This document shows positions 1 through 16,413 of a stretch of 20,456 nucleotides of DNA, one piece after another. This DNA comes from a virus, in the IMG/VR virus record IMGVR_UViG_3300020430_000118, positions 1 through 20,456 of that record; one strand, written 5' to 3'. Made by a program: the position numbers and the translations under genes. Numbering within the stretch: position 1 is the first letter of the stretch; each line of letters starts with the position of its first letter. A model generated the notes under the pieces. It worked only from the letters and a program-made list of their open reading frames with translations, was not told the origin of the DNA and searched no databases.

Positions 1-51
1 ATTGGTTGGTGCCTGTAACTGAATCTGTGCCGTTAAGTTGAAACCTGCCAT
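1..51 (-). CDS. Probable tail tape-measure protein, N-terminal 17 codons (gene runs off the left edge)
   Basis: An ATG at 51-49 opens a frame that stays open to the window edge and encodes MAGFNLTAQIQLQAPTN. A Shine-Dalgarno-like AAGAAGG sits about five bases upstream, and a copy of the TTGTGTATA-like motif lies further upstream at 120-128. The position, directly after the tail tube and three chaperone-position genes, is where tailed phages normally carry the tape-measure gene, which sets tail length and helps DNA delivery. The FNLTAQIQLQAP start resembles tape-measure N-termini I recall from environmental siphoviruses, but 17 residues cannot prove it. It could instead be another tail protein. 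Confidence 0.55.
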   Translation of the reverse strand, partial: MAGFNLTAQIQLQAPTN

Positions 52-119: not shown

Positions 120-128
120 ATTACACAA
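120..128 (-). promoter_or_regulatory. Putative late promoter core TTGTGTAAT before the tape-measure gene
   Basis: The minus strand reads TTGTGTAAT, matching the 9-mer found in four other intergenic gaps of this window. It begins just past the stop codon of the upstream gene (132-134) and lies 68 bases before the ATG at 51. This is the weakest of the five intergenic copies, with AAT instead of ATA at the end. There is no clear -35 hexamer. The promoter role is inferred from recurrence and position. Confidence 0.4.
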
Positions 129-131
129 TTA

Positions 132-1124
132 TTAGGCTTCTGTGTCAGTTTCTGCCTTAGTAGTTTTTCTCCTTCTTTTAGGCTTTTCTTCCACGGTCTC
201 TTCCGCTACCTCTTCTTCGGTAGCATCGGCAGCTTCGGGCTCTTCAACGGCAACCTTTGGAGGCTCTACAGGCTGACCTTTGTCGTCTAAGAATGGCTTT
301 CTCGCTTCGGTTCCAACCTTTTCCCAAGAAATATTACCATCTTCGTCTTCGACTTCGACAAGTTCTTCGCCATCCCTGTTGACGTAATAACGCTTATCAA
401 TGTCCTGATCTTTCTGGGCCTTCTTGGTTTTGTAGGCAACATAACGACCCTCTTCGCTAATTAGTCTACCTTCTGAATCAACTAAGTGCCCCTCTTCGTT
501 GACAAGACGTAGATCCTCATCGACAAATTCAAACTCCTTCAGAAACTTGTTTTCTGTTAGTTTGGTGTCATAATCTGGATCAAGACCATAAATCATATTC
601 GCTAGTTGACCAGCAGCCTCCATAACCCAAGGCTGATCTGCGGATTTATCGTAGTCATCTTGTGTTGGAAAATAAGGCTCTCTAGTGTTTGGGTTAAGCA
701 TACAAAGTCTAACAAGTTCTGCAAACCTAGCATTATCTGCCTGTCCCTCTGCTGAGTTTTGGTCAAGCGTATTTCTTTCAGACAAGAAGTCTCTGAACTG
801 AGCCCTGACAGTTCTAAGTTCCAGTGCTATAGCTTTGGCCTCTGATAAACGAATACCACCACCCTTAAGAGTCGTTTCCATTTCGGTTATCTTTTGTACG
901 TATGCATCGTTTTGTTTTTGTTTTTCTTCGTTCCAGATTCCTTGTGCTTCCATGTAATCAGAAAGTTTTTGTCTCAAAAGAGCACCAGAGTCAAGTGCCT
1001 TTCTAAAGGCTTTGTTATACTCGACCTGAGAGTCTCTATACTCTTGAGCACTAGCCGTTTTAAGCATAACTTTGACTTCGTTTCCATCTTTATCTTCGCT
1101 TGAAATAATTACATTATCCGTCAT
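132..1124 (-). CDS. Putative tail-assembly protein in chaperone position before the tape measure (330 aa)
   Basis: A 330-residue protein of unrecognised family, transcribed directly before the probable tape-measure gene, where tail-assembly chaperones usually lie. The N-terminal half (about 20-140) is charged and probably helical. Residues 180-196 carry GLDPDYDTKLTENKFLKEF, which resembles residues 61-79 of the preceding gene product. Residues 207-227 are three tandem 7-residue units (LVNEEGH, LVDSEGR, LISEEGR), and looser copies of the DxxG pattern follow to about 285. The tail is acidic then basic, ending near KPKRRRKTTK. The start is well supported by TAGGAG seven bases before the ATG. It overlaps the preceding gene by 11 bases, with the ribosome site inside that gene, suggesting coupled translation. 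It is longer than most chaperones, so another virion role is possible. Confidence 0.8.
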   Translation of the reverse strand: MTDNVIISSEDKDGNEVKVMLKTASAQEYRDSQVEYNKAFRKALDSGALLRQKLSDYMEAQGIWNEEKQKQNDAYVQKITEMETTLKGGGIRLSEAKAIALELRTVRAQFRDFLSERNTLDQNSAEGQADNARFAELVRLCMLNPNTREPYFPTQDDYDKSADQPWVMEAAGQLANMIYGLDPDYDTKLTENKFLKEFEFVDEDLRLVNEEGHLVDSEGRLISEEGRYVAYKTKKAQKDQDIDKRYYVNRDGEELVEVEDEDGNISWEKVGTEARKPFLDDKGQPVEPPKVAVEEPEAADATEEEVAEETVEEKPKRRRKTTKAETDTEA

Positions 1125-1521
1125 TTTTTTCTCCTAAGTTTCTATTGGGTTGACCGGGTTCTTTAACCGGCAAGTTTATGTAATGTTTTTTTCTGTTGAT
1201 ATCATAGTTACTAAATTCTATTTCCAGATTTCTTATCTGGGTGTTTCCTCTATCTAGTATTTTAGCTCTGGCTTCTTCATATATCTCCTTTAAGTGTCTT
1301 TGTTCCTCTGTTAACTCAGTGTCCCCATCTGGATCAAAACCCCACAAAAATCCAAAACCCTCTTCTATAGTAGATAAGGCACCTATCATCGTTGTCTGTA
1401 TTTTCTTTTTAGACGACTTAAACAGTGTCTCTCTAGATACCTCTTTCTTTCTCTCTTCCCGCATCTTTTTAAGGTCTAAAGATTTTTGCAGAAAGGAGTT
1501 GTAGTCTTGGTTCTGATTCAT
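1114..1521 (-). CDS. Small protein in tail-chaperone position (135 aa)
   Basis: A 135-residue protein with a lysine/arginine-rich N-terminus (residues 10-40), then a stretch around MIGALSTIEEGFGFLWGFDP (45-64), a DPDGDTELTEEQRHLKEIY segment (63-81) and a likely helix to about 100. The DPDxDTxLTE segment recurs in the following 330-residue protein. The family is not recognised with certainty. Position between the tail tube and tape measure makes a tail-assembly chaperone the leading guess. The ribosome site AGGAG of this gene is built from the final codons (Arg-Arg-stop) of the upstream gene, so the two are translationally coupled. Its 3' end overlaps the next gene by 11 bases. Confidence 0.75.
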   Translation of the reverse strand: MNQNQDYNSFLQKSLDLKKMREERKKEVSRETLFKSSKKKIQTTMIGALSTIEEGFGFLWGFDPDGDTELTEEQRHLKEIYEEARAKILDRGNTQIRNLEIEFSNYDINRKKHYINLPVKEPGQPNRNLGEKNDG

Positions 1522-1527
1522 CTCATA

Positions 1528-2589
1528 TTATCTCCTGTTCATATTTCCCATCGCAGCTTTTGTTGAAGCCACTCTTGCTATACTAATATCCTGTTGCATG
1601 TCGGGCAGATCTCTGATGTGAACCAGATCTCCGCTGGCATTTTGTATTGTGTTCTGTCTATTTATGATTGTTGATCTGGCAAAAGGATCATTTAGGTCGA
1701 AAATTTCATTGGCCTGTTCTTGGTCTTGGGCCATTAGGAATATCTCTTGTGAGTTCTTGATCTTTTCGTTTCCAGACAGCATATCATCAATCTCTCTTTG
1801 TTTCTTGTCTTTTTCATATTTTCTTCTCTGTAATATGAACCAGCCGTCTAAACAATCGTCATCCTCTATTGCTTTCTCTTTAGGTGCGTCTGGGCTTTCG
1901 TACACATTATCATACATTGACGAGTATTGGCATACCGCTAGCTGATTTGCATCCAAGCACGAAGAAGGTTTACCAAAAACGTCTCCCCTTTTCTTAGACG
2001 ATGTCCACATAGAACGGAAAGGTTGAGATCTAGCTATCTTTCTGAAAGTGGCCGTATCAATAACGTGCTCACCATATATATCCATAATTCTAGATATAGA
2101 AACCTTTTTAAAATCAAACAAAGAGCCGTCTTCGTTTTTTGTTGTTTTAGAAATTATCCAGCTCTTTCTGGCGAAATTAGCAATCCCCTTGCAAGTAACA
2201 TGATTTAACTGTTTCTTTTTGTGGATAGCTTGCCCTAGAAGATGCTCTGTGTGTCTCAGTTGCCGTTTTATTCCAAATAGCTTTTTGGCACTGTAGAAAT
2301 TTTTAAAAGCTTGCACCTTTAATTCCTCTATCTTTTCCTCGTAATCCTTGGCGGCCTTCTCGTCGAGAGGACTCCACAGGTCATTATTTATCAATAGCTC
2401 AAGAATTTCTTCTTCTATGAACACACCACCAAAATACGCTTTATCGTAATACTGGTCGTATATATCGTAAGAAGCCTCTAATATTTCTTGGCTTGGTTCT
2501 TCTATAAATAAAACAAGATCGCCTAGCCTTATGCGTAGGCGACCCTGTATAATTCTGTTCAGAACTCTTTCGTAGTAAATATCATCCAA
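1528..2589 (-). CDS. Unidentified tail-region protein starting with TTG (353 aa)
   Basis: A 353-residue soluble protein with no signal peptide or membrane segment. It is charged and mostly helical in appearance. The N-terminal part (1-75) is acidic with many tyrosines; 76-130 is a probable coiled region. An IEDDDCLDGWFILQRRK segment (241-257) looks like a conserved motif that I recall from proteins beside phage tape-measure genes, although I cannot name the family. The frame has an in-frame TAG shortly upstream and no ATG until about residue 169. The TTG at 2589, with AGGA seven bases before it, is therefore the only reasonable start. The gene lies 32 bases after the tail-tube gene and seven before the 135-residue gene. 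Tail assembly is inferred from position only. Confidence 0.78.
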   Translation of the reverse strand: MDDIYYERVLNRIIQGRLRIRLGDLVLFIEEPSQEILEASYDIYDQYYDKAYFGGVFIEEEILELLINNDLWSPLDEKAAKDYEEKIEELKVQAFKNFYSAKKLFGIKRQLRHTEHLLGQAIHKKKQLNHVTCKGIANFARKSWIISKTTKNEDGSLFDFKKVSISRIMDIYGEHVIDTATFRKIARSQPFRSMWTSSKKRGDVFGKPSSCLDANQLAVCQYSSMYDNVYESPDAPKEKAIEDDDCLDGWFILQRRKYEKDKKQREIDDMLSGNEKIKNSQEIFLMAQDQEQANEIFDLNDPFARSTIINRQNTIQNASGDLVHIRDLPDMQQDISIARVASTKAAMGNMNRR

Positions 2590-2621
2590 ATTAAAATCCT
2601 AAGTCCTAAAGTTAAACTACA

Positions 2622-3626
2622 TTAGCTACCGCCGTTAACGGTCAAGCTATTGAAGTTAGAGAAAGAGTAGCTAACCGTAGCGTTTCCACCACCGGTGTCT
2701 CCACCAGAGTAAGAAACAGATGCTAGCTTGTTCTTGGTTCCCAAGTTGAGAACCGTACCAGCAGTATCCTTGATCACGATCTCTTCATTAGAAAGGTTAG
2801 TACCGTTTCCAGAAACTGTCATCAAGTCACCAGAGGTAGCAATGATCTCGAATTCTGAGGTAACTTCGATTGGGAAAGTAGCATATCTTGTATAGGGGCT
2901 AAATCTTCCCAATTCCAAGATGTTTTCTTGACTCATGTCAGTACTCACACTGCAAGACTGCATGTGGAATCCGCCACCAAGTCCAGTTGCGTCATCACCC
3001 CTTTGCTCTTTGAGAATAGCGGGTAATGTAGAACCTTCAAGGTCAACGTTGTTACGACGAACAACACCAGACTTAGGAACATCAGATCCGCTGAATACAG
3101 AGGTATGGTTAGTAGCTCCCCATTTTGTACTTGCTGTTGTGCTGGTTTCGTTATTAACGGAGTTCCAGAATCTGTTGTTACCAACAAGGGTAACGGACTC
3201 AGTAGCACTTCCATCAACACTGTAACTATAAGATACAGAAGATGTATACATTCCAGAGTTCCAGCAGATATTTCTTGGAGCACCAGTAGCGTTGGAAACA
3301 CCGTCATCATAAATAGCGAGATAAACATCACACTTATTTTTAGAGGCTGTAACGAGGTCAGTTTTACATGCCCCACCACTAGCCAAGTCAAAGATCAGCT
3401 TTTCACCGTCGATAACTTTTTCAAGAGTTACCTCGATATCGGCAACGTCTTCGATATTTTCATAGATATTAAGCTGTCCCATTTCAAAGACTTGGTCTAG
3501 AGTAAAGTTGGCTGACATGCCAACACTCTGCAAGCCCAAGACGACACCTCCGGAAGCAGGAGCTGCTCCCTCAGCGACGATACAGACAGCTTGACAAGCA
3601 TAGAATATTCTTTGATTGCGAGCCAT
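2622..3626 (-). CDS. Major tail tube protein (334 aa)
   Basis: This is the probable subunit of the tail tube, the channel for DNA ejection. The N-terminal region, especially residues 33-73 (SVGMSANFTLDQVFEMGQL and the following IYENIEDVADIEVTLEKV), matches the pattern of tail-tube proteins of aquatic phages as I recall them: a long strand-rich domain with an ENIEDVADIEVTLEK-type segment. Residues 125-150 are rich in Ser, Tyr and Val. The C-terminal 80 residues form a separate Ser/Gly/Thr-rich domain, possibly an Ig-like decoration on the tube surface. The start is fixed by a strong AGGAGAACAT ribosome site at 3631-3641. A late-promoter-like motif at 3675-3683 sits 48 bases upstream, as expected for a protein needed in many copies. 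The family is inferred by recognition and gene order, not by a search. Confidence 0.75.
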   Translation of the reverse strand: MARNQRIFYACQAVCIVAEGAAPASGGVVLGLQSVGMSANFTLDQVFEMGQLNIYENIEDVADIEVTLEKVIDGEKLIFDLASGGACKTDLVTASKNKCDVYLAIYDDGVSNATGAPRNICWNSGMYTSSVSYSYSVDGSATESVTLVGNNRFWNSVNNETSTTASTKWGATNHTSVFSGSDVPKSGVVRRNNVDLEGSTLPAILKEQRGDDATGLGGGFHMQSCSVSTDMSQENILELGRFSPYTRYATFPIEVTSEFEIIATSGDLMTVSGNGTNLSNEEIVIKDTAGTVLNLGTKNKLASVSYSGGDTGGGNATVSYSFSNFNSLTVNGGS

Positions 3627-3630
3627 TTTT

Positions 3631-3641
3631 TATGTTCTCCT
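3631..3641 (-). promoter_or_regulatory. Strong ribosome binding site AGGAGAACATA of the tail tube gene
   Basis: The minus strand reads AGGAGAACATA four bases before the tail tube ATG. The same long block, not just the AGGAG core, precedes the capsid gene (12113-12122) and the gene at 6227 (6231-6240). Close variants precede the internal scaffold start and the portal. Confidence 0.75.
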
Positions 3642-3674
3642 GTTAAAGTTTGTCCTCTGGTAAGGCCACTACTA

Positions 3675-3683
3675 TATACACAA
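3675..3683 (-). promoter_or_regulatory. Putative late promoter core TTGTGTATA before the tail tube gene
   Basis: The minus strand reads TTTTTGTGTATATAG here, in the 64-base gap between the 321-residue gene and the tail tube gene, 48 bases before the ATG. It is identical over nine bases to the copies before the portal and the fibre block. A T-run directly precedes it and no -35 hexamer is evident, which suggests a phage-modified polymerase or phage sigma factor. Confidence 0.55.
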
Positions 3684-3690
3684 AAACGCT

Positions 3691-4656
3691 CTAAAAGGGT
3701 TTAACTTCAGTGGTGCAGCGAGCCGTTCCCATATATAAATCAGGCGAAAGCTCTACAATAGTAGACCCTCTAGAGTCGTGAATCCAGCATTTTCTACGAT
3801 CCCAAGAGTGAAACTGAACAAGATTAGGGTAAAGACCACTGGGGATAGCATTGGGCCTTAATTCGTTCCTGTAATTAAACGGGGAAGCACCAGAAATAGC
3901 CACTTGAGTTGGATCAAATAGTGTCAACGATCTATCGTTTTGGGTTATGATGGTATCTACTATATTTGTACATTCCCAGTGATTTTCAGCCATCACATAA
4001 AAAACAACGTCACTATTAACCCATTGACCACCGCCCAAAGCATACGGCTTGACAGATGTAGCCGGAACAACCTCAATAGCAATAGCAGGAAGCTGAACTC
4101 TAGTTTGACCAAGCTTCATCCATCCACCAGAGCCCGAAACCTGAAAGTCCTCTTCGTTGCGAAAAGATCTTTGCTGTAACTGTTGGAACCAAGATATACC
4201 TTGTGCGGGAACAACTTGTACCCACTTATGGCTGTATTCAAGATGAACAGAACTGGTTGATGACAACGCTGAATCAAAAACAACTCTACCGTTGGGATAA
4301 TCAACATAGAATGGTTTAGTAACATTACCCGTAGCGTAAAAAGTATTGTCTACATAGACGCCAGAAATGGTTATTGGTTGCTGAGTGGTGCCATCTATAC
4401 CTGACTCCCAAACCCAGTTTTGTCGATAGCCCTCCCAGACCTGACCAGCCGTATAATTAGGAGAGTCCACTAGTCTTAGCTTGTGTCTGTCTCCACCATA
4501 TATTCCAGACTGAGGCACGCTAATATTGTAAAACTGACCCGCGTCCAAAAACCCCCAATCATAAAAGGTTATGAAATTATCTATTAGGATATTTGAAAGC
4601 TTGGCATCTTGAGCGTTGCTTGTATATAAGAGCTTTGTATCGGGAGTTCCTACCAT
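3691..4656 (-). CDS. Unidentified virion protein between neck and tail tube genes (321 aa)
   Basis: A 321-residue protein rich in aromatic residues (many Trp and Tyr) and alternating hydrophobic patterns, suggesting a beta-rich structural protein. Residues 20-60 (ILIDNFITFYDWGFLDAGQF followed by SVPQSGIYGGDRHKLRL) and 140-165 (HKWVQVVPAQGISWFQQLQQ) look like conserved segments. No catalytic motif was found. It sits between the tail-completion candidate and the tail tube gene, which fits a tail terminator or neck/tail-joining role, though it is large for a terminator. The ATG at 4656 follows AAGGGA, and the ribosome site lies within the last codons of the upstream gene, implying coupling. I cannot name the family. 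Confidence 0.75.
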   Translation of the reverse strand: MVGTPDTKLLYTSNAQDAKLSNILIDNFITFYDWGFLDAGQFYNISVPQSGIYGGDRHKLRLVDSPNYTAGQVWEGYRQNWVWESGIDGTTQQPITISGVYVDNTFYATGNVTKPFYVDYPNGRVVFDSALSSTSSVHLEYSHKWVQVVPAQGISWFQQLQQRSFRNEEDFQVSGSGGWMKLGQTRVQLPAIAIEVVPATSVKPYALGGGQWVNSDVVFYVMAENHWECTNIVDTIITQNDRSLTLFDPTQVAISGASPFNYRNELRPNAIPSGLYPNLVQFHSWDRRKCWIHDSRGSTIVELSPDLYMGTARCTTEVKPF

Positions 4657-4659
4657 TTT

Positions 4660-5268
4660 TTATAATCCCTTTTTTAATATGTCTGTAATCTGAGAACCCG
4701 CCCTCTCTATGGCTCTTGTAATAAAATTATCGTTTGCAGTACCGGAAAAAGCACTATTTACTTTATATGGAGCGAATTTTTTTCTCATTCTGGCACCGCC
4801 AGATCTTCCATATGAACCAAACTCAACGCCAAAGTCTGCTATTAAAATTGTGTCCCCAGCAATAAGTAGCCAACGAAGCCAAGGTATACTGCCCCCGTCT
4901 ATCTTCTGTTCTGCAAATGAGGACGTTAAAAGATTTGCAAAGTCAGAAGGCTGCATAGTAATAGTGATTCCACCCACAAGATTAGCATCAACCTTTTGAA
5001 CCTCTATTTCAAGAGTATCTAAAACAGCGTTAACAATATCAAACGCAGGGTTATAAGTTAAACCAAACTCCGCCGCCAGTAGCCCGTTTTGAAGAGATAC
5101 GATCTCAGGAGAACTTAAGAGTGCCGACTTAATTGGGGGAATAAGATTGCTTTTAATTTTGTTGGTAGACTTTAGTAGAGCTACATTAATATCCCTAGAG
5201 AGAGCCTTTTTTATTTCTTTCTCTATTGTCTTGTTTGACTCTATTATTTTTAGTCCAGTCTTAGCCAT
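4660..5268 (-). CDS. Probable neck or tail-completion protein (202 aa)
   Basis: A 202-residue protein with a helical N-terminus (residues 10-50: charged, many Lys/Glu/Asn) and a more hydrophobic centre. Residues 128-150 (IPWLRWLLIAGDTILIADFG) and the following FGSYGRSGGARM resemble a PWLxWLL...GD...IADxxxxFG....RSGGAxM pattern that I recall from phage tail-completion or minor structural proteins. The preceding gene overlaps it by eight bases and the next starts three bases after its stop, so it belongs to a tightly coupled neck cluster. The ribosome site is weak (GGAATAG inside the upstream gene), consistent with translation by coupling. The exact role, whether head-tail joining or tail completion, is inferred. 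Confidence 0.75.
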   Translation of the reverse strand: MAKTGLKIIESNKTIEKEIKKALSRDINVALLKSTNKIKSNLIPPIKSALLSSPEIVSLQNGLLAAEFGLTYNPAFDIVNAVLDTLEIEVQKVDANLVGGITITMQPSDFANLLTSSFAEQKIDGGSIPWLRWLLIAGDTILIADFGVEFGSYGRSGGARMRKKFAPYKVNSAFSGTANDNFITRAIERAGSQITDILKKGL

Positions 5269-5776
5269 TCATTCTATTCCAAAAAGTTACAGCGTATTTT
5301 GTTGGGTTTTGCTTAAATCCTTGGGGGTATGATGGCCCACCTCTCTGATATCTAGCACTAGTATCGTAGTTTTGAATTCCGTCGTACTGGGGTATCATAT
5401 ACTTACATTTTTCTATTTTAGGTAGAATAGACATGTCGCAAATAGTCTGTACTGAACCGTCTGGTATCTCTAGTGGTATACCTATATTCACCCATGACTT
5501 TCTATCATAGTATATCCTGAGAGAAACGCTTTCCTTCGCCTCTACTGCCTTGTATCCCTTGCCTCCACAATACGGACAAGGCATACCCCTCTCAAACGGA
5601 TATGGTCCTCCGGGCTTGTAAAAGCTAACAGATCTATTTCTTGTTCCCATAGTGTCAAGATAACAGTTGGGACACTGCTCTTTCTTTTCTGGGTACACCA
5701 AAACTGCTGGCCTAGTAAAAAGGTCAACAGCCTCGTTGTACGTATTAAATACTCCACTAGGGATACTTAAAGGCAT
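5261..5776 (-). CDS. Putative neck protein with a four-cysteine zinc-ribbon motif (171 aa)
   Basis: A 171-residue protein whose striking feature is two CPxC knuckles: C35-P-N-C38 and C67-P-Y-C70, the second followed by GGKG, as in DnaJ-type zinc ribbons (CxxCxGxG). Between them lies a Gly/Pro/aromatic loop (SFYKPGGPYPFERG, 51-64). The rest (80-130) is probably beta-rich, with SLRIYYDRKSWVNIGIPLEI (85-104). The metal site probably folds a small structural domain rather than binding DNA, but that is inference. The neighbours are connector and tail-completion candidates, so head closure (stopper) or a related neck function is likely. The start follows AGGATAG made of the last codons of the upstream gene; the 3' end overlaps the next gene by eight bases. 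Confidence 0.75.
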   Translation of the reverse strand: MPLSIPSGVFNTYNEAVDLFTRPAVLVYPEKKEQCPNCYLDTMGTRNRSVSFYKPGGPYPFERGMPCPYCGGKGYKAVEAKESVSLRIYYDRKSWVNIGIPLEIPDGSVQTICDMSILPKIEKCKYMIPQYDGIQNYDTSARYQRGGPSYPQGFKQNPTKYAVTFWNRMNG

Positions 5777-5777
5777 T

Positions 5778-6227
5778 TTATACTATCCTATAGGTAAGGT
5801 GCCCATTAACGTTTCCAGCACTGTTGGTTAATTTAAGAGCCTCGCCCGCATTTGTAAATAGCGTGGTGTCTCCAATGTTTGAAGAAATACCACCATTGGC
5901 TGCAAGGGTCATTCCGCCTGAAAGAGAATTACTGTCGGACTTCCAAGTGACCGTAGTAGCCGAATCGGTGACTATGGTGTAACTTAGTACCTCTACCGAT
6001 CTATTTGGAGTCGCGGCGACAAGTGTAGCCGTTGTTGCACCAACATTAATCGAAAGGGTCAATGCGTCATTATGAAACTTAGCTGAGTCTGCCGGTAAAG
6101 CCATCGTGTTCTGATTTATTCCTCCACTGACCAACTGCCCTTTATCGAAAGTTCCAGTATTTGAAGTAAAGGTTACTCCGCCGCCCTCGTTAAACGAGGT
6201 GCCTTTGATGTTTGCTGTAACAGCCAT
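5778..6227 (-). CDS. Beta-rich virion protein of unknown role (149 aa)
   Basis: A 149-residue protein rich in Thr, Ser, Gly, Asn and Val, with no charged clusters: a typical secreted-looking or virion beta-sandwich composition, without a signal peptide. The N-terminal 55 residues form one unit. From about residue 78, VEVLSYTIVTDSATTVTWKS begins a second module ending in GHLTYRIV, which resembles small beta domains that recur in phage structural proteins. It carries a strong AGGAGAACAT ribosome site at 6231-6240, like the capsid and tail tube genes, which suggests high output. That fits a decoration or collar component. Placement between the connector candidate and the zinc-ribbon protein is consistent. 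The family is not recognised. Confidence 0.75.
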   Translation of the reverse strand: MAVTANIKGTSFNEGGGVTFTSNTGTFDKGQLVSGGINQNTMALPADSAKFHNDALTLSINVGATTATLVAATPNRSVEVLSYTIVTDSATTVTWKSDSNSLSGGMTLAANGGISSNIGDTTLFTNAGEALKLTNSAGNVNGHLTYRIV

Positions 6228-6230
6228 TTT

Positions 6231-6240
6231 ATGTTCTCCT
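6231..6240 (-). promoter_or_regulatory. Strong ribosome binding site AGGAGAACAT
   Basis: The minus strand carries AGGAGAACAT three bases before the ATG at 6227, identical to the block before the capsid and tail tube genes. Confidence 0.7.
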
Positions 6241-6253
6241 GATTAAGTTGTTT

Positions 6254-6766
6254 TTAATAATATCTACCATTGAAGCCATTATCGTTGTAGCCAACTCCCC
6301 AGCTAGCAGGACTGTATGGCCCAAGAATAGCGGTTCCGGCTGGCGTACCATCTCCACTTCCTTTTTCGTAGTTGTATTTTTTTAGTAGTTCGTCATACTT
6401 AGCACAAAAGTCTTTATACATTAGGTTTAAGCTAGAGGTAACTCCTCTTAGATCAATGGCAGATGGGCCGTCTTTGATAGATATTGCATTAGAAGACTCT
6501 GTTTTAACTTCGCTACCAAGTAATATGCACGCACTTTTGTATGTGGTCAATACATTAAAGTCGGTATCCACCTTTGATATAGGATCCGGAGAAATGGTCA
6601 AGGCATTCATATCAACGACATAATTATTGTTGAATGGGGCGTCGTTTATGACATTATATGCTCCAATCACCAAAACCTGCTGTAGTCTAGTGTCTGTATA
6701 TTTTGCCGAATCTAAATCGCCTATAAGCGTTCTAAGCATCAGGACTAAATCTGTTGTCCAAGCCAT
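6254..6766 (-). CDS. Putative head-tail connector (adaptor) protein (170 aa)
   Basis: A 170-residue protein whose first 110 residues look helical: LVLMLRTLIGDLDSAKYTDT (7-26), then RLQQVLVIGAYNVINDAPF, and a later KSACILLGSEVKTESSNAIS. This layout, a short helix followed by a predicted LIGDLD...YTDxxL turn and several amphipathic helices, is typical of head-tail connector proteins (gp6 or gp15-like adaptor family) that dock on the portal. The C-terminal 35 residues are Gly/Pro/Tyr-rich and probably extended, useful for reaching a partner. It stands 23 bases after the previous gene with an AGGGG ribosome site. The assignment rests on helix pattern and gene order; no search was possible. Confidence 0.75.
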   Translation of the reverse strand: MAWTTDLVLMLRTLIGDLDSAKYTDTRLQQVLVIGAYNVINDAPFNNNYVVDMNALTISPDPISKVDTDFNVLTTYKSACILLGSEVKTESSNAISIKDGPSAIDLRGVTSSLNLMYKDFCAKYDELLKKYNYEKGSGDGTPAGTAILGPYSPASWGVGYNDNGFNGRYY

Positions 6767-6789
6767 ATTGTTTTCCCCTTTTAAACCTA

Positions 6790-7098: not shown

Positions 7099-7107
7099 GT
7101 TCTTACC

Positions 7108-8445
7108 CTAACCTAAATTAAATGTTATATTTTCTCGTATATTTATTTCCGCGTCAAAGTCCCTTGATGTGTCTATATTTGCGACAAAATCAGATCCTGT
7201 ATTAATATACACAATAAAATCTACTGAAGACGCAATTCTGTCCATTCCGCCCCTAGCGGTCAATGAAGCCGAAGACGATAAGCTGGCTGCTCCAAATTGC
7301 CCAGTTCCACCTACCGCAACTATATTCGCTGAAGCGTCTAGTGAAGATGCTCCGTGTTTTACTCTTCCGGCAGATGCGGATATTGTGGCTGAGCCCTGAA
7401 TAGAAGCACTTCCAAACTTATTTATCTTTCCTGATGGCGAGACACTTGCGTCAGCCGACAAAGAAGAGGAACCCTTTTTGATTACCGTTCCGCCCGCAGA
7501 TACAGTTCCGGTACAGGAAATTGTGGCGGCTCCGTAGTCTACCAATCTACCGGCAGCCTCTAGAGAGGCAGAAGCTGAGATACTAGCTCCAGACCTCTTT
7601 ACGGCTTTCGGATCGGCAGACATTGACGCTGTTGCAGAAAGAGACGACGCTCCCAATTTCTGGACTAATCCCGCAGAGACAACCGTGCCACTACAGGAGA
7701 TTGAGGCGGCACCAAACTTTCTTACCGTGCCAACAGAGACAACAGATCCGCTAGCAGATAGTGTCGCCTGACCTCCCCTGATTATATTTGAGTCTGACGA
7801 CATAGAGGCGGTGGCGTTGAGGGAAGCCTGTCCGTTGTGGGTGTCTCCAGTGGCGGCTTCCAAGGTCGCGGTTGCGGTTAAAGAGGCCGACCCAGACCTT
7901 TTTACAAAACCGGCGGAAGTTACGGTTGCAGAAGCAGACAGGGATGCGGAAGCAATATCTCTTTGTGTGCCCTCTGCTGCTACACTAGCAGTTGCAGACA
8001 AAGACGAAGCACCCGAACGTATAACATTTCCTGCTGAAGACACTGATCCGCTAGCAGACAGGGAAGATGCTCCATATTTAATTACACCGCCAGCGGAAAC
8101 AATAGCTGCACTAGCAGTGATAGTAGCCGCACCTAACTTTGTTACAAAAGCAGACGAGGTCAGGGATGCCGAGGCCGATACGGATGACGATCCAGACGCT
8201 ATTATGTTACCAGCAAAAGAAGCCGTAGCATTTGCGGATAAAGAAGATGCTCCATGCTTTACTCTACCTGCGGTAGAAGCAACGGACGCACTAGCGGATA
8301 AAGACGCTGAACCAGCACGAATGACATTTCCGGCAGCGGCTACAGAACCAGTCGCAGACAGTGACGCTGCACCATTGTGTGTGGTTCCACCATCAGATAG
8401 CGAGCTATAAGGGGCAGAGCTGTAAGAGCCTCCTGAGTAAGTCAT
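7108..8445 (-). CDS. Repeat protein of nineteen 20-residue units, putative virion fibre (445 aa)
   Basis: Residues 1-23 are a Gly/Ser/Tyr-rich leader. Residues 24-403 are nineteen tandem units of about 20 residues with the pattern xGxxSLSAxASVxxxGxVxx (unit 13 has 21 residues, unit 14 has 19). The alternating small/hydrophobic residues and a Gly turn in each unit suggest one beta hairpin or one solenoid coil per repeat. The last 42 residues differ: they hold about three short DFxxxI[ND] repeats that may cap the fold. Cysteine, tryptophan and proline are nearly absent. The ATG follows the strong AAGGGGGGTGAT. The position after the capsid and modular fibre genes suggests a head or neck fibre. 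The function is not recognised. Confidence 0.8.
   Translation of the reverse strand: MTYSGGSYSSAPYSSLSDGGTTHNGAASLSATGSVAAAGNVIRAGSASLSASASVASTAGRVKHGASSLSANATASFAGNIIASGSSSVSASASLTSSAFVTKLGAATITASAAIVSAGGVIKYGASSLSASGSVSSAGNVIRSGASSLSATASVAAEGTQRDIASASLSASATVTSAGFVKRSGSASLTATATLEAATGDTHNGQASLNATASMSSDSNIIRGGQATLSASGSVVSVGTVRKFGAASISCSGTVVSAGLVQKLGASSLSATASMSADPKAVKRSGASISASASLEAAGRLVDYGAATISCTGTVSAGGTVIKKGSSSLSADASVSPSGKINKFGSASIQGSATISASAGRVKHGASSLDASANIVAVGGTGQFGAASLSSSASLTARGGMDRIASSVDFIVYINTGSDFVANIDTSRDFDAEINIRENITFNLG
7206..7214 (-). promoter_or_regulatory. Intragenic copy of the TTGTGTATA motif
   Basis: The minus strand reads TTGTGTATATTAAT inside the last codons of the repeat gene (encoding IVYIN), 107 bases before the next start. 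It is a perfect nine-base match to the intergenic copies. It may be a real promoter for the 102-residue gene onward or a chance product of coding sequence. Confidence 0.2.
7237..8376 (-). repeat. Tandem 60-bp repeat array, 19 units, diverged in DNA but periodic in protein
   Basis: The stretch encodes residues 24-403 of the repeat protein, 1140 bases or 19 x 60. Each unit begins near a Gly and contains an ASLSASAS-like core. Synonymous codons vary widely between units, so the array is old or kept by protein-level selection, not a recent slippage product. The same composition produces long meaningless open frames on the plus strand. Confidence 0.9.
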
Positions 8446-8455
8446 ATCACCCCCC

Positions 8456-10543: not shown

Positions 10544-10565
10544 TACCTAAAACCTTATTTAAAAA

Positions 10566-10979: not shown

Positions 10980-11029
10980 GGCTTATTGCTCCTTGTTATT
11001 TTATTAAGTGTGATGCATCCACACCATAG

Positions 11030-11038
11030 TATACACAA
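11030..11038 (-). promoter_or_regulatory. Putative late promoter core TTGTGTATA before the fibre block
   Basis: The minus strand reads TTTTGTGTATACTATGG just past the terminator that closes the capsid gene, 50 bases before the ATG at 10979. A promoter directly behind a terminator gives the fibre block its own transcript. The nine bases are identical to the copies before the portal and tail tube genes. Confidence 0.6.
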
Positions 11039-11044
11039 AATACG

Positions 11045-11076
11045 AAAAAAGCCGCCCCAATATTGAAGCGGCTTTT
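11045..11076 (-). terminator. Intrinsic terminator after the major capsid gene
   Basis: On the minus strand AAAAGCCGC and GCGGCTTTT form a nine-base stem (arms 11068-11076 and 11047-11055) around a 12-base loop. The final strand runs into T residues at 11050-11045. It lies 28 bases after the capsid stop codon. The A-rich opposite side would make it partly bidirectional. Confidence 0.85.
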
Positions 11077-11103
11077 CCCGTTTAGGTCATCAACCAGTCA
11101 TTC

Positions 11104-12108
11104 TTAGAATGATCCAGCGATAATTCTTCGGTTGTCAAGAACACCAAATCCGAGTTCGGCCCATCCATAGTAGCCTTGTCGTTGGTGACGATGAAGAGCT
11201 TCGTCTTCAAAGATCTCAACTTCCTTCTTGACAGGCATTACAAAGCTGTCGCTTGCACCCTGATCAAGACCGATGACCAATTCAACATCGCCAGTAGCCA
11301 ATGAGCCACCAAGGTCGTTATCGAAGTACTCTTGGTATTCCTGACTGTCACCGAATTCAAAGATGTCATGAAGATTGACACCAAAGATTCGAGTCAAAGG
11401 ACCACCATCATCAGCAGCGGTGTAGATTTCACGTCGTGAAACTTCATCAAGCTGATCTACGCCCCAGTTACGAATATCTTCGATAGCTTCTGGAGACAAG
11501 TAAAGATCCGTCAAGCGGCCCGGAGCAGTAACACTGTTACCACCACCGTTTCGACGCATAACGGTTTTCATGAGGCTGACCAATCGCTTAGTGAACTGAC
11601 CAGCAGCAGCATCTGCATCGTAAACCAAGATATTACGGTCAACGGCAGCAGCCAAAAGTGTGTGCCAACCATCGTCGTTGATCTTCTTGACAAAAGAAGC
11701 TTCAAGAACTTGCATAGCTCTTGCAACAACGTTCCAGTTAGCCTCACGAGCATACTTAAGCAAGAAGTCAATCGAGCTTGTGATGCCGTAAGTATTGATC
11801 ATAACGTAGTCACCTTCGACGTGTCGTTCTGGAATACGTCCGTTGCCCGGATTAGTGAAAGCAACGTGATCAATTTCGGTACCGGGAGCCAAGAGGTCCA
11901 ATGGGAACTCAGGGGTAGCACCGGGCTCTAGTGGCATAGCTTCGTAAATACCACCAACGATGTCACCGTAAGTAACACCTTTACGCAAAGGCAATTCTAA
12001 TGCCTTAGCGATCTCTCGCTGTGCTTGGATAGCGACAGCTTTATCTGAATCACCGGAACGCTTAAGCAATTCGATGAATTCTGGGCTAGGTCTATCTTTA
12101 ATTGACAT
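11104..12108 (-). CDS. Major capsid protein, HK97-fold candidate (334 aa)
   Basis: A 334-residue protein of the right size, place and expression signals for the major capsid protein that builds the icosahedral head. The N-terminus (1-45) is charged and helical (EFIELLKRSGDSDKAVAIQA). Residues about 110-150 form a helical spine-like segment (NVVARAMQVLEASFVKKIND), then a DDGWHTLLAAAVDRNILV stretch. A late P-domain-like part includes LYLSPEAIEDIRNW, and the C-terminus ends ELGFGVLDNRRIIAGSF, similar in style to capsid proteins with a GVLDxRR end. It follows protease/scaffold and decoration genes, has the strong AGGAGAACAT ribosome site (12113-12122), and is followed by a terminator. The HK97 fold is inferred from family context; no structure search was possible. 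Confidence 0.85.
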   Translation of the reverse strand: MSIKDRPSPEFIELLKRSGDSDKAVAIQAQREIAKALELPLRKGVTYGDIVGGIYEAMPLEPGATPEFPLDLLAPGTEIDHVAFTNPGNGRIPERHVEGDYVMINTYGITSSIDFLLKYAREANWNVVARAMQVLEASFVKKINDDGWHTLLAAAVDRNILVYDADAAAGQFTKRLVSLMKTVMRRNGGGNSVTAPGRLTDLYLSPEAIEDIRNWGVDQLDEVSRREIYTAADDGGPLTRIFGVNLHDIFEFGDSQEYQEYFDNDLGGSLATGDVELVIGLDQGASDSFVMPVKKEVEIFEDEALHRHQRQGYYGWAELGFGVLDNRRIIAGSF

Positions 12109-12112
12109 TATT

Positions 12113-12122
12113 ATGTTCTCCT
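12113..12122 (-). promoter_or_regulatory. Strong ribosome binding site AGGAGAACAT of the capsid gene
   Basis: The minus strand reads AGGAGAACAT four bases before the capsid ATG, identical to the block before the tail tube gene and the gene starting at 6227. Confidence 0.75.
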
Positions 12123-12135
12123 TTTCTATGTTACT

Positions 12136-12624
12136 TTATAGGTTGGTATTAGGAAGGTTGATGTAAACTTTAGCATAGCCATTTTGGTCAACGCTAGAGA
12201 GGAATCTCCCAACGACGCGGCCCGAACCATCTGAATCGGCGTCATCGCTAGCGATGTCGGCAGGGCTAATATTACCACTGTGTCCCAAGAAAGCTGGGTT
12301 TCCAGCAGCAGGGGAACCTTCCAGAGAGTTGGTTACAACCCATCCTTTGGTAAGCAAAGTTACTTTGCCACCCTTTTGTACTTCGTCTTTGTGCTGGTTA
12401 ATGTGTTGACGAGTCAAGTCAATATCAACTACGTCATTAACCAAAAGACCCACAGGGATTTTACCGGATGGATCGGCTGCATAAACTACTTTAGCCGCCC
12501 CATTATCCATAGATGCACCAGAACCTCCAGTGCTTAAAACAGCAACACCACCCCGAGTTTGTGCTTCATTCATGAAGAACGAAATGTCGGTTGCTAGCGT
12601 GCTTCGGTCTGATTTAAGAGCCAT
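12136..12624 (-). CDS. Putative capsid decoration protein (162 aa)
   Basis: A 162-residue, Gly/Ser/Asp-rich beta protein between the scaffold and capsid genes, the usual place for head decoration or stabilising proteins (lambda gpD position). Features are GGVAVLSTGGSGASM (25-39), DPSGKIPVGLLVNDVVDIDL (51-70), a possible small barrel around KGGKVTLLTKGWVVTN (84-99), NPAFLGHSGNISPADI and a terminal VGRFLSSVDQNGYAKVYINL. The GRVVGRF...GYAKVYINL end is reminiscent of DUF2190-type capsid-associated proteins, but the match is loose. The ATG follows AAAGGAG with normal spacing and the gene lies 27 bases before the capsid start, so both are probably on one message. The role as a decoration protein is inferred from position and composition. 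Confidence 0.75.
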   Translation of the reverse strand: MALKSDRSTLATDISFFMNEAQTRGGVAVLSTGGSGASMDNGAAKVVYAADPSGKIPVGLLVNDVVDIDLTRQHINQHKDEVQKGGKVTLLTKGWVVTNSLEGSPAAGNPAFLGHSGNISPADIASDDADSDGSGRVVGRFLSSVDQNGYAKVYINLPNTNL

Positions 12625-12648
12625 TATGAAATCTCCTTTATTTTGAAA

Positions 12649-13356
12649 TTACTTGTTGTTTGATTGTAAAACTGAACCAAGCCACTCACTAGCAACAGAA
12701 CGAAGGTTTTCCGCAGGATCGTCTTCGCCCATCGCTTCTGCGATAGCAACTTCTTCTGTTTCCTCGGCCTGAGCCAAGGCTTCTTCGTCCACTTCAGCAA
12801 CGTCTCGCTCTTCGTCGAGTTCAGCCATCTTTTTCATAGGCTTTGCTTCAGCGTCCTTTTCTTCGTCTTTGTCTTCGTCCTTTTTAGGAGGAAAAGGCTT
12901 AGCCTCATCCTTTTTCATTTCCGCTTTCTTTTTGACTGCTGCAAGTGCAACAACCTCAGCGAAAATTTCATCGTTGACAGACTCGAATTTTTCCACAGTA
13001 GCTGTGGCTTCTTCAGCATCAAACCCTGCTTCTGTAAGCTGGGCTACACGCTTCATAACGGCTTCTTTTTTGTACAGAACATCAAGCTCTTCTTGCTTAG
13101 AAGCAATAGCTTCTTCTTTTTCAGCAATGGTAGCTTCATGCTTTGTAACTTGTTCAGCCAAAACCTTATAAGCTTCTTCTTGCTCGGCAATCTTTGTGGA
13201 CTGCTCTGCAATGGTTTCTTCAAGGTTAGTTAGTTTAGCATCGAATTCAGCTTGCTGCTCAGCAACAATCTTGTCTTCTAATGCTTTGTTAGCAGCCTTA
13301 GACTCTGCTAACTGCGATTGCAGATCAGTGATCTGCTTTTCGTAACTTTCAGACAT
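12649..13356 (-). CDS. Scaffolding (prohead core) protein from an in-frame internal start (235 aa)
   Basis: The ATG at 13356-13354 is residue 272 of the larger protease/scaffold protein, in the same frame. It is preceded by a near-perfect ribosome site, AAAGGAGAACGAT, encoded by the codons for Leu-Lys-Glu-Asn-Asp. That block matches the strong sites of the capsid and tail tube genes, so separate initiation is likely. The product begins MSESYEKQITDLQSQLAESK and is a long acidic coiled coil of Glu/Lys/Ala/Gln up to about residue 130, then an acidic Lys/Glu/Asp-rich hinge and a C-terminal ENLRSVASEWLGSVLQSNNK segment that could contact the capsid protein. Length and composition fit scaffold proteins. 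Making scaffold alone in excess over the fused form mirrors lambda C/Nu3 and herpesvirus UL26/UL26.5. Confidence 0.75.
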   Translation of the reverse strand: MSESYEKQITDLQSQLAESKAANKALEDKIVAEQQAEFDAKLTNLEETIAEQSTKIAEQEEAYKVLAEQVTKHEATIAEKEEAIASKQEELDVLYKKEAVMKRVAQLTEAGFDAEEATATVEKFESVNDEIFAEVVALAAVKKKAEMKKDEAKPFPPKKDEDKDEEKDAEAKPMKKMAELDEERDVAEVDEEALAQAEETEEVAIAEAMGEDDPAENLRSVASEWLGSVLQSNNK

Positions 13357-14169
13357 ATCGTTCTCCTTTAATGAAGATATAGTTAAAACTTGTGCCTTCG
13401 ATTCATCAAATAAATCATTTCCTTCCAAAATTACACTTCGTGGGTTAGCTGGTTTTGAAACTAAGCCTTTACCAGAGAACGATAAGTTTCTTAACAATCG
13501 GCCCACTCTGTAATCTTCGTAAATTCCGTCTCCTCCATATGATCTTAAGTGTTTTGTTAAAAAGGCGGAAGCCTCATTTCTTTTAACGATCTTGGTCTCT
13601 CCGTCCTTATTAGCTAAAGCGTAATCAAACTCAGGAAAAAGACACTCCATAGAAACGAACCACTTGCCCTCTTCTATTTCCGCCGTTATTTTTTTCATTC
13701 GTTCTCGCTGTTCGGCATCTGACCACTCAGTATATATAACAGCGGAAGTTACTATGTTAAATTGACTAGGTAAGCCATCTTGTTCGTCAACAACTTTTCC
13801 CTCAAAATCGACAACCTCGTTGGCCGTGATGTGACCAATTATGTCTTTCTCGTCGTGCATAAAATTAAAAGGTTTGTCCTCTGGGGTGTTTCTTGCTTCC
13901 CACATCTCTTTGGGATCAAAAACATCGTCATTCTTATTCCACCCAGTACTAACCAAGATAGACTTTAAATAGTATAAATCAAATTGATCTTGGTTCTCGG
14001 CAATCGCCAACTCGCTCCCTGCCTCGCTAGAGTCAAGGGCCTTCTTTAGATTTTCGATATCTTTTTCGGTAGGATTATAAGACTCTGCTAGAGCACAACA
14101 TGCTATAGTATTATTAGCCGACAGAGCTTTTTCCAAACCGTCGTTTATCTCTTGTTGGTAAATTTTCAT
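12649..14169 (-). CDS. Fused prohead protease and scaffold protein (506 aa)
   Basis: The start is the ATG at 14169, with GGAGGAG ahead of it; an upstream in-frame GTG at 14199 lies inside the promoter-like motif and has no ribosome site. Residues 1-65 are helical. Residues 70-245 look like a capsid-maturation protease: FNFMHDEKDIIGHI (101-114) and GKWFVSMECLFPEFDYAL (168-185) supply a candidate His105 and Ser173. Their spacing and setting resemble the S78/assemblin-like proteases (NHD...IGxV, then SxGF). This is a pattern match; the third catalytic residue is not identified. Residues 272-506 are the coiled-coil scaffold also made separately from the internal start. The protease would cut scaffold and capsid tails during maturation. 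It follows the portal gene and precedes the decoration gene, the standard place. Confidence 0.75.
   Translation of the reverse strand: MKIYQQEINDGLEKALSANNTIACCALAESYNPTEKDIENLKKALDSSEAGSELAIAENQDQFDLYYLKSILVSTGWNKNDDVFDPKEMWEARNTPEDKPFNFMHDEKDIIGHITANEVVDFEGKVVDEQDGLPSQFNIVTSAVIYTEWSDAEQRERMKKITAEIEEGKWFVSMECLFPEFDYALANKDGETKIVKRNEASAFLTKHLRSYGGDGIYEDYRVGRLLRNLSFSGKGLVSKPANPRSVILEGNDLFDESKAQVLTISSLKENDMSESYEKQITDLQSQLAESKAANKALEDKIVAEQQAEFDAKLTNLEETIAEQSTKIAEQEEAYKVLAEQVTKHEATIAEKEEAIASKQEELDVLYKKEAVMKRVAQLTEAGFDAEEATATVEKFESVNDEIFAEVVALAAVKKKAEMKKDEAKPFPPKKDEDKDEEKDAEAKPMKKMAELDEERDVAEVDEEALAQAEETEEVAIAEAMGEDDPAENLRSVASEWLGSVLQSNNK
13357..13367 (-). promoter_or_regulatory. Internal ribosome binding site for the nested scaffold
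   Basis: The minus strand reads AGGAGAACGAT directly before ATG (13356-13354), with an A-rich lead. It lies within coding sequence of the longer protein and is stronger than the site of that longer protein. It decides the start of the nested scaffold. Confidence 0.75.
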
Positions 14170-14192
14170 TTTTGAGTACTCCTCCGAGGGGT

Positions 14193-14201
14193 AATACACA
14201 A
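14193..14201 (-). promoter_or_regulatory. Putative late promoter core TTGTGTATT before the protease/scaffold gene
   Basis: The minus strand reads TTTTTTGTGTATTACC in the 59-base gap between portal stop and protease start, 23 bases before the ATG at 14169. This is the shortest leader of the five intergenic copies. It rules out the upstream GTG (14199-14197) as the true start, since that GTG is part of the motif. Confidence 0.5.
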
Positions 14202-14228
14202 AAAACTAATTACAGTGATAAATCTTGG

Positions 14229-16352
14229 TTAAAAACAGGACATACCAGCATACACGGTGGCGTAGATATGTCTAGTTTCAAGAACGGTTGGCTTCCTGTT
14301 ATTTATAGAAGAGAAGCTTTTTATGTTTTCCTCGACCCTATCACTGAATTGTGAGCTAGGTTTTGTTCCCGCCTCAACAAGTTCTTTGACTAGCTCAGGG
14401 GTTACATCTACGAATGGTTTCATTCCCGTAAGAATACATAGCTTCAAATACTCTAACTGGTCAACCTCCACCTTGCTTAAGGCCCTAGCGTCTTTCTTTT
14501 TAAAGTGCGAGCAGGCAATGGGCGTCATTATATCAGAGATCTTTGCCTGTGCTTTAATCGCCCATAAGGTTGCACTTGTCGCTTCACCGCTTCGGGGTAA
14601 AACACGCTTTTGTTTTCTGGGCTGTGTGTCCCTAGAGAAGGGAGGACGACCCTCGTCGTTAATTGGCTCTGATCTTTCTTCTTCTTTTTCTACTTCCTCT
14701 TGGACTGGATTGGGACTTGGTGCCGCCTCCTCTTCTTTTTCCTGATGAGGGATACCAAGTCTATCAAAATACTCTTCCGTATCAACTATATCCTTAGTCA
14801 TACCTATTTTGACTACATCATTCCTATGTTGAGGATTATGATAAGGACCAGCTTTCTTTGGAGCAGACGAATCGTTCATTCTTTCTCTCTCTTCTCTTCT
14901 TACCCTAACGCGTTCAATGGTGGGTATCTCTCTGAATCTTTCAAGAAGAGTTTCTTGAGATATAATGTCTCTGTCTGCAAGCTGGATAAGCAGGTTTTTC
15001 TGAGCGGCTTCATCCGATAGAACAATGGAATCAAAATGTATCTCAGCAGGAAACCTGAATCCCATAGCCTCTCTGACAAACTCTATTTCCTGTCTCCAGA
15101 ACTGGGCAAGTATTTCTCTACCGTATTCAAGTCTTTCGATTAGGGTTTTTAGAGATACATAGTTATTTGTATATCCTCCGCTGGCAGATGCTCCCGTAAG
15201 AGTAGGAGGGATACCAAGGCCCGCATAGATGCTGGTCAAAACCGGCTGATACTTTTCTGACCCCAAGAACTTGTATACCTGAGATTGGCTTTCTGTAAAG
15301 CTAAGCTCTGGACCCCAAACCAAATCCATAGTGCCTCCACCAACATTACTAGCGAGTATGTCTCTAACCTTATTTAGGCCAGCCTTGGTTGGTACAATTT
15401 TTTGATCGAAATCACCAAGAGTCCACAGACGGACGCTCGATATTGCTCCATCAAGTGCAGCTAAGTCTGCGAGCTTCATTTTTTCCAGCATATTTATGTC
15501 ATCAAGGATAGCATAAATCATAGGATTAGCCCAGAGAAGCCAGTCATCCTTTTTGTAGTGATAGAAAAATGTGCTGTTAGAATCTAACGGTATTCTGCGG
15601 TCATTATCTTTTATTCTTTTTTGCAGATCTGCCGGAAGAGTCTTAAAGCTGTTCTTGTTTTGTGTTGAGGACTTTAGTAGTGATTGATATGTGTATTTTG
15701 ACAGGTTTAAATAAAACTCTGGTTTGCCAACAGCAAGCATCCCATGGTCCATAACGTCAATAGCGACAGGGTTGAGAAAGTCATACATCCAAGGCACTTC
15801 TCTTTTTTTGACCTTTTTTGTTTCTATGACAATATCAGCAGCAGCGGCACGCTTTAGGTGGGCCTCTTTTTTCTTGTCGAGCTTTGCGGTTCTTCTTTTT
15901 ACTACAACATTTCCGGTTCTATAAAGATAGTTCAAAAATCTTTCAGATCTGTCCGTACCATTAACCTGATTAAACCATTTTCTGTAAAACTTCTCTATGC
16001 TTTTATTTGGATGTACAAGCACAAGACCCTGACTAGCAAAGTCGCTCATAAGATCAATAACGTTTCTTATAATTCCAACCCTATCATAAGCATTCATGCA
16101 CATAGACATTATACGCTTTTGTTTGCTTGGAATGGCTTCGCCGGGTCTAAACGCATCATAATCAGATCGTCTAAAGCTAGGACGTACAGAGCGATTTGTT
16201 TCAACGTCTATATAGGTCTGCCTATTTCCGTTGTAACCATAATGAGCCTGAGAACGATAAACGGCACCGTCATATCCCTCTAAAGCATTGTCATCATATA
16301 CTTTTCCCTTTTCAGCGTCACTGGCCCATGTTTGGAATAGAGGTTCGGACAT
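14229..16352 (-). CDS. Portal protein with an extended C-terminus (707 aa)
   Basis: This is the dodecameric ring through which DNA is packed and released. Portal features include an N-terminal arm (1-75), a wing region with SMCMNAYDRVGIIRNVIDLM (83-102) and RKWFNQVNG (124-132), and a Lys/Arg-rich insertion (150-185). A stem/crown segment holds SIYAGLGIPPTLTGASASGG (374-393) followed by NNYVSLKTLIERLEYGREIL, a typical portal signature. Residues 535-570 are an acidic, Pro/Glu-rich linker. Residues 595-707 form a further folded-looking domain not expected in a portal of usual length (about 450-550). The ATG at 16352 has GGAGAACAATATAA upstream and follows a late-promoter motif at 16405-16413. 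It lies 62 bases after the terminase gene. The portal call is confident; the extension is of unknown role. Confidence 0.9.
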   Translation of the reverse strand: MSEPLFQTWASDAEKGKVYDDNALEGYDGAVYRSQAHYGYNGNRQTYIDVETNRSVRPSFRRSDYDAFRPGEAIPSKQKRIMSMCMNAYDRVGIIRNVIDLMSDFASQGLVLVHPNKSIEKFYRKWFNQVNGTDRSERFLNYLYRTGNVVVKRRTAKLDKKKEAHLKRAAAADIVIETKKVKKREVPWMYDFLNPVAIDVMDHGMLAVGKPEFYLNLSKYTYQSLLKSSTQNKNSFKTLPADLQKRIKDNDRRIPLDSNSTFFYHYKKDDWLLWANPMIYAILDDINMLEKMKLADLAALDGAISSVRLWTLGDFDQKIVPTKAGLNKVRDILASNVGGGTMDLVWGPELSFTESQSQVYKFLGSEKYQPVLTSIYAGLGIPPTLTGASASGGYTNNYVSLKTLIERLEYGREILAQFWRQEIEFVREAMGFRFPAEIHFDSIVLSDEAAQKNLLIQLADRDIISQETLLERFREIPTIERVRVRREERERMNDSSAPKKAGPYHNPQHRNDVVKIGMTKDIVDTEEYFDRLGIPHQEKEEEAAPSPNPVQEEVEKEEERSEPINDEGRPPFSRDTQPRKQKRVLPRSGEATSATLWAIKAQAKISDIMTPIACSHFKKKDARALSKVEVDQLEYLKLCILTGMKPFVDVTPELVKELVEAGTKPSSQFSDRVEENIKSFSSINNRKPTVLETRHIYATVYAGMSCF

Positions 16353-16404
16353 TTATATTGTTCTCCGGCGATAGTATTGTCAATTATATTGCTGATTGTA
16401 TTGA

Positions 16405-16413
16405 TATACACAA
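16405..16413 (-). promoter_or_regulatory. Putative late promoter core TTGTGTATA before the portal gene
   Basis: The minus strand reads GATTGTGTATATCAATACAATC directly after the terminase stop, 52 bases before the portal ATG. The motif is flanked by a short inverted repeat (GATTGT at 16410-16415 and ACAATC at 16394-16399), which could be an operator or chance. No -35 hexamer is evident. Confidence 0.5.

Follow-up and report, generated by a model that had tools for sequence, protein, structure and literature searches.

How is transcription of the structural genes started in a phage whose head and tail genes are preceded, at selected gaps, by the same short word, and what recognises that word? 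The question is raised by a stretch of 20,456 nucleotides (nt) from the IMG/VR virus record IMGVR_UViG_3300020430_000118 (hereafter the window), in which TTGTGTATA or a close variant recurs ahead of such genes. We propose, with a probability of roughly 0.78, that TTTTTTGTGTATAAT is a single-block, -10-like late promoter element of this phage family and that it is read by a phage-encoded sigma factor of 173 amino acids (aa). An initial annotation, made from the window alone, had called the element a candidate phage-specific late promoter, and the comparisons described here support that reading.

Within the window, exact TTGTGTATA is found in four copies against an expectation of 0.19 and TTGTGTAW in six against 1.59, and in neither case did any of 100 shuffled sequences reach the observed number. 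All six copies are on the minus strand, as is every gene called in the window, and the significance of the motif rests on these two words and on their placement on a single strand. Five copies had been located correctly by the initial annotation, including their strand, their position in gaps and their distance of 23-68 nt to the next start codon, while an additional exact copy inside the 3' end of an open reading frame (ORF) had been missed (Table 1). This sixth copy is conserved in the relative loci L083, L085 and L157, where it stands 91-94 nt before the same gene. At the 506-aa putative scaffold gene the spacing is counted from the ATG at 14169 and not from a longer ORF beginning with GTG, and the form found there, TTGTGTATT, is the commonest one ahead of this gene in relatives.

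The window has a near-identical counterpart of 138.5 kb (G001, whose positions equal 29419 minus the window position), and three further long relatives were used, G002 (145 kb), G003 (148 kb) and G004 (95 kb). The window terminase and capsid proteins match hundreds of relatives in IMG/VR; among sequenced phage isolates only distant relatives of these two proteins were found, and blastn gave no nucleotide match to an annotated relative among 50,697 phage records. Across 157 relative loci, TTGTGTATA occurs 205 times on the late-gene strand and not once on the opposite strand. After dereplication to 87 loci, TTGTGTA is present in 212 of 554 gaps, against 0.7 expected from its in-gene frequency and with four occurrences on the reverse strand, and is the most enriched gap word, above the Shine-Dalgarno word AAGGAG. 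Expectation-maximisation from random starting words converges on ttttTTGTGTATaat, which is present in 54% of 235 dereplicated gaps. The motif precedes the orthologues of the portal gene in 60 of 72 cases, of the scaffold gene in 77 of 79, of the head gene following the capsid gene in 6 of 11 and of the tube-like gene in all 8. The weaker form TTGTGTAAT ahead of the window's tape measure gene is replaced by TTGTGTATA or TTGTGTATT at the same position in G002 (35319) and G003 (134938). Conversely, no motif was found ahead of the terminase (0/66), capsid (0/67), decoration (0/70) and ClpP-type protease (0/45) genes, nor at any of 793 random control positions inside genes. Such motif-free genes have short gaps or overlap the preceding gene, and hence appear to lie inside operons.

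These counts, namely four exact copies against 0.19, 205 against none on the two strands and 212 gaps against 0.7, already refute the chance recurrence of an A+T-rich word. The figure that would agree with chance is the loose one, since a tolerance of two mismatches gives 76 matches in the window where 73 are expected; being at chance level, this count proves nothing alone and was not used as evidence. A point against the promoter reading is that the motif score by itself, taken within one genome, exceeds shuffled sequence only moderately, the strength of the motif lying in its position and conservation.

The element lacks a -35 partner. A TTGACA box with at most one mismatch, 16-18 nt upstream, accompanies 3 of 167 late sites against 2.9 in shuffles, which is the chance level and agrees with the absence of an evident -35 box noticed in the initial annotation. 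Ordinary TTGACA-N17-TATAAT promoters are instead carried by the early/middle gaps of the four long genomes, where a -35 box of this quality accompanies 23 of 39 TATAAT boxes against 0.6 in shuffles. When gaps of at least 45 nt are compared, TTGTGTA is present in 22 of 37 late but only 5 of 172 early/middle gaps, while TTGACA/TATAAT pairs with up to two mismatches are present in 4 of 37 late and 45 of 172 early/middle gaps. The genomes hold two promoter classes, split by genome region. This split bears on whether the element could be a promoter of the host sigma70 of the extended -10 type, lacking a -35 box. Aligned with a -10 box, consensus positions 6-11 read TATAAT and the bases immediately ahead are GTG, with G residues just upstream as in extended -10 promoters. 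The classical extended -10 form is TGnTATAAT, whereas here the register is one off and GTG abuts TATAAT. Since, moreover, the host-type promoters of the same genomes have a strong -35 box and no TTGTG, and TTGTGTA is distributed so unequally between late and early gaps, we regard recognition by host sigma70 as improbable. As a separate observation, the host-type promoters in early/middle gaps of the four long genomes (L160-L187) share a conserved spacer word, TTGACAAATGcCGATAaaTATaGTATAAT, whose GCCGATA/GACGATA part sits between -35 and -10.

An intergenic element would also be part of leader RNA under read-through transcription, and could in principle act there as a processing or translation signal, or bind a protein other than a sigma factor. 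However, the element itself stays constant over distances to the start codon of 17-94 nt, one copy is placed right behind a terminator-like hairpin, its core resembles TATAAT, and a phage sigma lacking region 4 is encoded in the structural cluster; a role of this kind is therefore considered very improbable, more so than recognition by the host. The hairpin, with its T run, follows the capsid gene 6 nt before the 11030 element, a layout shared with relatives, and its position is as expected if a new transcription unit starts at this element.

The initial annotation had argued that a phage-encoded factor would be needed to read the element, and phage sigma genes are indeed present, two of them, of which the probable reader is chosen on the grounds given here and below. 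A weak match to the T4 gp55 family (PHROG 234) in G002 led to a small orthologous protein in all four long genomes. In G001 it comprises 173 aa (5978-6499) and is encoded about 2.5-3.0 kb past the right edge of the window. The Sigma70 region 2 domain (PF04542) is found above its gathering cut-off of 24 bits in all four genomes, with 29.3 bits for the 173-aa protein and 35.3 bits in G004, and more distant members reach 28.5 and 24.0 bits; models of region 4 gave no match to the 173-aa protein. A PHROG family of RNA polymerase sigma factors is matched by 25 of 26 aligned members. An AlphaFold2 model of the protein is all-helical (predicted local distance difference test 81, predicted template modelling score 0.46), and sigma factors make up nearly all of its leading fold matches, none of which falls below an E value of 0.02, so that the model counts as supporting evidence only. 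The gene lies 3.7-6.0 kb upstream of the terminase gene in 12 of 12 loci with enough sequence. The motif still accompanies the sigma where the latter is only 40% identical, on a contig in a SAR202 metagenome-assembled genome (MAG), where GTGTATA precedes the portal, scaffold and post-capsid genes, two later genes and the sigma operon. The GTGTATA core is also located 180-360 nt upstream of most 173-aa sigma genes, ahead of the small first gene of the operon, which suggests that the sigma operon may activate itself through this core. Regarding these leaders (e.g. L226 about 5640-5720), conservation extends in one subgroup to a block resembling AACCGCCCCGACTCGCCCC, placed about 30-45 nt ahead of the core, and in another to GTGTGCATAT about 18 nt upstream of it; these blocks could serve the promoter of the sigma operon as a second recognition element.

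Among known systems, the nearest promoter is that of phiEco32 (Kuravirus), which like phage 7-11 has late promoters read by a phage sigma, gp36, with the phiEco32 consensus TAATGTATA established by experiment (PMC4331800). This consensus shares seven of nine positions (T..TGTATA) with TTGTGTATA but has AA instead of TG at positions 2-3, and hence is not the same. Both systems have a short extended -10-like element before structural genes, a phage-encoded sigma, and the same split between host-type early promoters and late promoters of (in our case, proposed) phage-sigma type. The phiEco32 genome is smaller, with 77 kb against about 140-155 kb, and its sigma gene belongs to a functional cluster, whereas here the gene is part of the structural cluster. 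The 214-aa gp36 is not recognisably closer to either sigma of these phages than sigmas are in general, hhalign giving a probability of 1.4% with the 173-aa family and of 0.2% with the second family, of 157 aa. The T4 late promoters, to which the initial annotation had drawn a parallel, consist of TATAAATA without a -35 box and are served by gp55, a sigma with region 2 only, the clamp gp45, and gp33 (PMC2988020, PMC7892883). The parallel stands in its logic, with a single -10-like block lacking a -35 box, many copies before head and tail genes and a small region-2-only sigma, but not in sequence or demonstrated homology, as TATAAATA is not matched by ttttTTGTGTATaat, phiEco32 is closer and the structural genes of this phage family are not T4-like. 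In T4 and some relatives the sigma ends in an LDFLY-like sequence, whereas in the 173-aa family the end is IINGE, in some cases with an acidic tail, and on inspection no hydrophobic clamp-binding C-terminus is evident. Neither a gp45-type clamp (PF02916) nor a bacterial beta clamp (PF00712) was matched in the four long genomes, the PF02916 control being nearly silent too. The best matches of the 173-aa sigma among solved structures and folds are region 2 domains of ECF-type sigma factors, from which it differs by lacking region 4 and a -35 element. As regards polymerases, a multisubunit beta subunit gave no match with its control working, while a T7-type enzyme (PF00940) gave no match with a silent control, so that its absence is not shown. 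The element would work like the T4 and phiEco32 promoters and belongs to neither family.

Besides the single-genome score, further points weigh against the proposed explanation. The homology of the 173-aa sigma to T4 gp55 is weak, with hhalign probabilities of 70-75% over region 2 only and matches to PHROG 234 in 2 of 26 family members at a best E value of 0.0026. The promoter of the sigma operon itself bears the motif core, which means that an initial source of sigma is needed. Finally, most long records encode a second sigma of 157 aa that carries both Sigma70 regions 2 and 4 and could read the element. This complete small sigma is present in G001, G002 and G003, in five of eight further long records and in MAG contigs; its gene lies among middle genes, so that it could be expressed ahead of the late cluster. 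The operon of the 173-aa sigma is itself preceded by the GTGTATA core, and no third promoter motif that the 157-aa sigma might own was found in the remaining early gaps, which held only ribosome-binding sites and A/T runs. The element may thus be a late promoter read by the 157-aa protein, with the 173-aa protein having another role or acting later. Against this, region 4 in a sigma normally goes with the use of a -35 element, which is not conserved at these sites, and all loci able to show linkage have the 173-aa sigma gene together with the late cluster. Because of the missing -35 element and this linkage, the 173-aa protein is favoured as the probable reader of TTGTGTATA, and the 157-aa protein is regarded as an unlikely one. 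Of note for the neighbourhood of the second sigma, a strong late element is found in G003 (75107) directly behind the 157-aa gene and before a 227-aa gene (orthologue at G001 94146-94853). A third Sigma70 region 2 match of 41.7 bits was observed in G002 (C1:83107-83304, minus strand) and not seen in other genomes.

With the 173-aa protein as the reader, the following order of events is proposed. Host RNA polymerase would first use ordinary TTGACA/TATAAT promoters to transcribe the early and middle genes. The 173-aa sigma, whose gene heads the structural cluster, would then redirect the polymerase to TTGTGTATA, which it would recognise without a -35 box. Separate transcripts would start for the portal, scaffold/capsid, head decoration, connector/tail, tube and tape measure blocks, and GTGTATA in the leader of the sigma operon would provide positive feedback. 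A more specific version is offered tentatively, as a possibility of limited probability: a two-sigma cascade in which the 157-aa sigma serves the middle phase and the 173-aa late sigma reads TTGTGTATA without a phage sliding clamp and activates itself via GTGTATA, its specificity having arisen independently of gp36 and converged on nearly the phiEco32 promoter.

Mechanisms of this kind are known. New to the sources compared are the consensus, the lineage of the sigma and the family of phages that hosts them; a search of the open literature, subscription journals lying outside it, turned up no paper that names TTGTGTATA as a promoter of a phage. What is gained is a proposed late-promoter consensus with a candidate sigma for mostly marine phages of roughly 140-155 kb, a family without isolates. 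For the hundreds of IMG/VR contigs of this family, genes may be sorted into early/middle and late ones from sequence alone, and metatranscriptomes may be read for infection stage using the motif. The small sigma and the short invariant element would make a convenient pair in which to study promoter definition by a region-2-only sigma, as well as a possible orthogonal expression tool, and the near match with the promoter of the unrelated phiEco32 makes the convergence of -10-only promoters a testable question.

Table 1. Proposed promoter elements and genes of the window, and the 157-aa sigma genes of long relatives (window coordinates unless a record is named; distances run to the start codon)
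Feature	Coordinates	Strand	Remarks
Proposed late promoter element TTGTGTATA	16405..16413	-	52 nt before portal gene start (16352); directly after terminase stop; median 49 nt in relatives
Proposed late promoter element TTGTGTATT	14193..14201	-	23 nt before start (14169) of 506-aa putative scaffold gene; median 21 nt in relatives
Terminator-like hairpin GCCGCTTCAATATTGGGGCGGC, then TTTTTT	11045..11072	-	After capsid gene
Proposed late promoter element TTGTGTATA	11030..11038	-	50 nt before head-protein/decoration block start (10979)
Additional copy TTGTGTATA	7206..7214	-	Within 3' end of ORF 7108-8445; 107 nt before 102-aa gene start (7098)
Proposed late promoter element TTGTGTATA	3675..3683	-	48 nt before start (3626) of 334-aa putative tail tube gene; median 47 nt in relatives
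Proposed late promoter element, weaker form TTGTGTAAT	120..128	-	68 nt before tape measure gene start (51)
ClpP-type head maturation protease	18388-19026		
Terminase large subunit	16415..18391	-	PHROG 2, E 1.7e-23; no motif ahead
Putative portal, 707 aa	14229..16352	-	By position and size, no family match; first gene behind 16405 element
Putative scaffold, 506 aa	12649..14169	-	By position; weak unnamed PHROG match
Major capsid protein	11104..12108	-	PHROG 2522, E 3.2e-5; tblastn match to phage G major head protein; no motif ahead
Head protein, 137 aa	10566..10979	-	PHROG 240, E 1.2e-19; first gene behind 11030 element
Putative tail tube, 334 aa	2622..3626	-	By position before tape measure block, no family match; behind 3675 element
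Tape measure gene, 5' end	1..51	-	Rest outside window; orthologue G001 29368-38409, PF10145, E 6.8e-25
157-aa sigma, G001	94946-95419		L164:14946-15419
157-aa sigma, G002	116264-116734		
157-aa sigma, G003	74627-75100		

With respect to the genes behind the elements, the functions that the initial annotation had given to the blocks hold in part. The tape measure gene is borne out by PF10145 on its G001 copy, while portal, scaffold and tail tube are assigned by position or size, with no match to a named family. The block behind the 11030 element had been taken for fibre genes, and its first gene instead encodes a PHROG head protein; likewise the protease that had been placed in the 12649-14169 gene corresponds to a ClpP-type enzyme encoded elsewhere in the window.

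Further observations were made in the long relatives. In G001, three DUF1501 genes lie in a row-like group at 101-106 kb (L165:1261-2517, 3749-4960 and 4957-6204); outside phages, their closest relatives are in marine Planctomycetes (about 43%). The use of these genes to infer the host was tried and rejected: the top-ranking hits (79% and 60%) fall in contigs of a SAR202 MAG, and the first of these contigs is itself phage, as judged from primase, kinase and nuclease neighbours. In the MAG titled SAR202 OSU_TB57 (G008), the contig with the best DUF1501 match has phage replication genes as neighbours, contig C9 carries a related capsid, sigma and structural cluster, and C7 and C13 also have relatives of the 157-aa sigma. 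C7, C9 and C13 are probably phage contigs binned with the MAG, or come from an infected population. At 69.5-74.2 kb of G001 (L163:9477-14226), the DNA polymerase is split over two ORFs of 531 and 525 aa, which match successive parts of one PHROG polymerase family and have an exonuclease gene between them.

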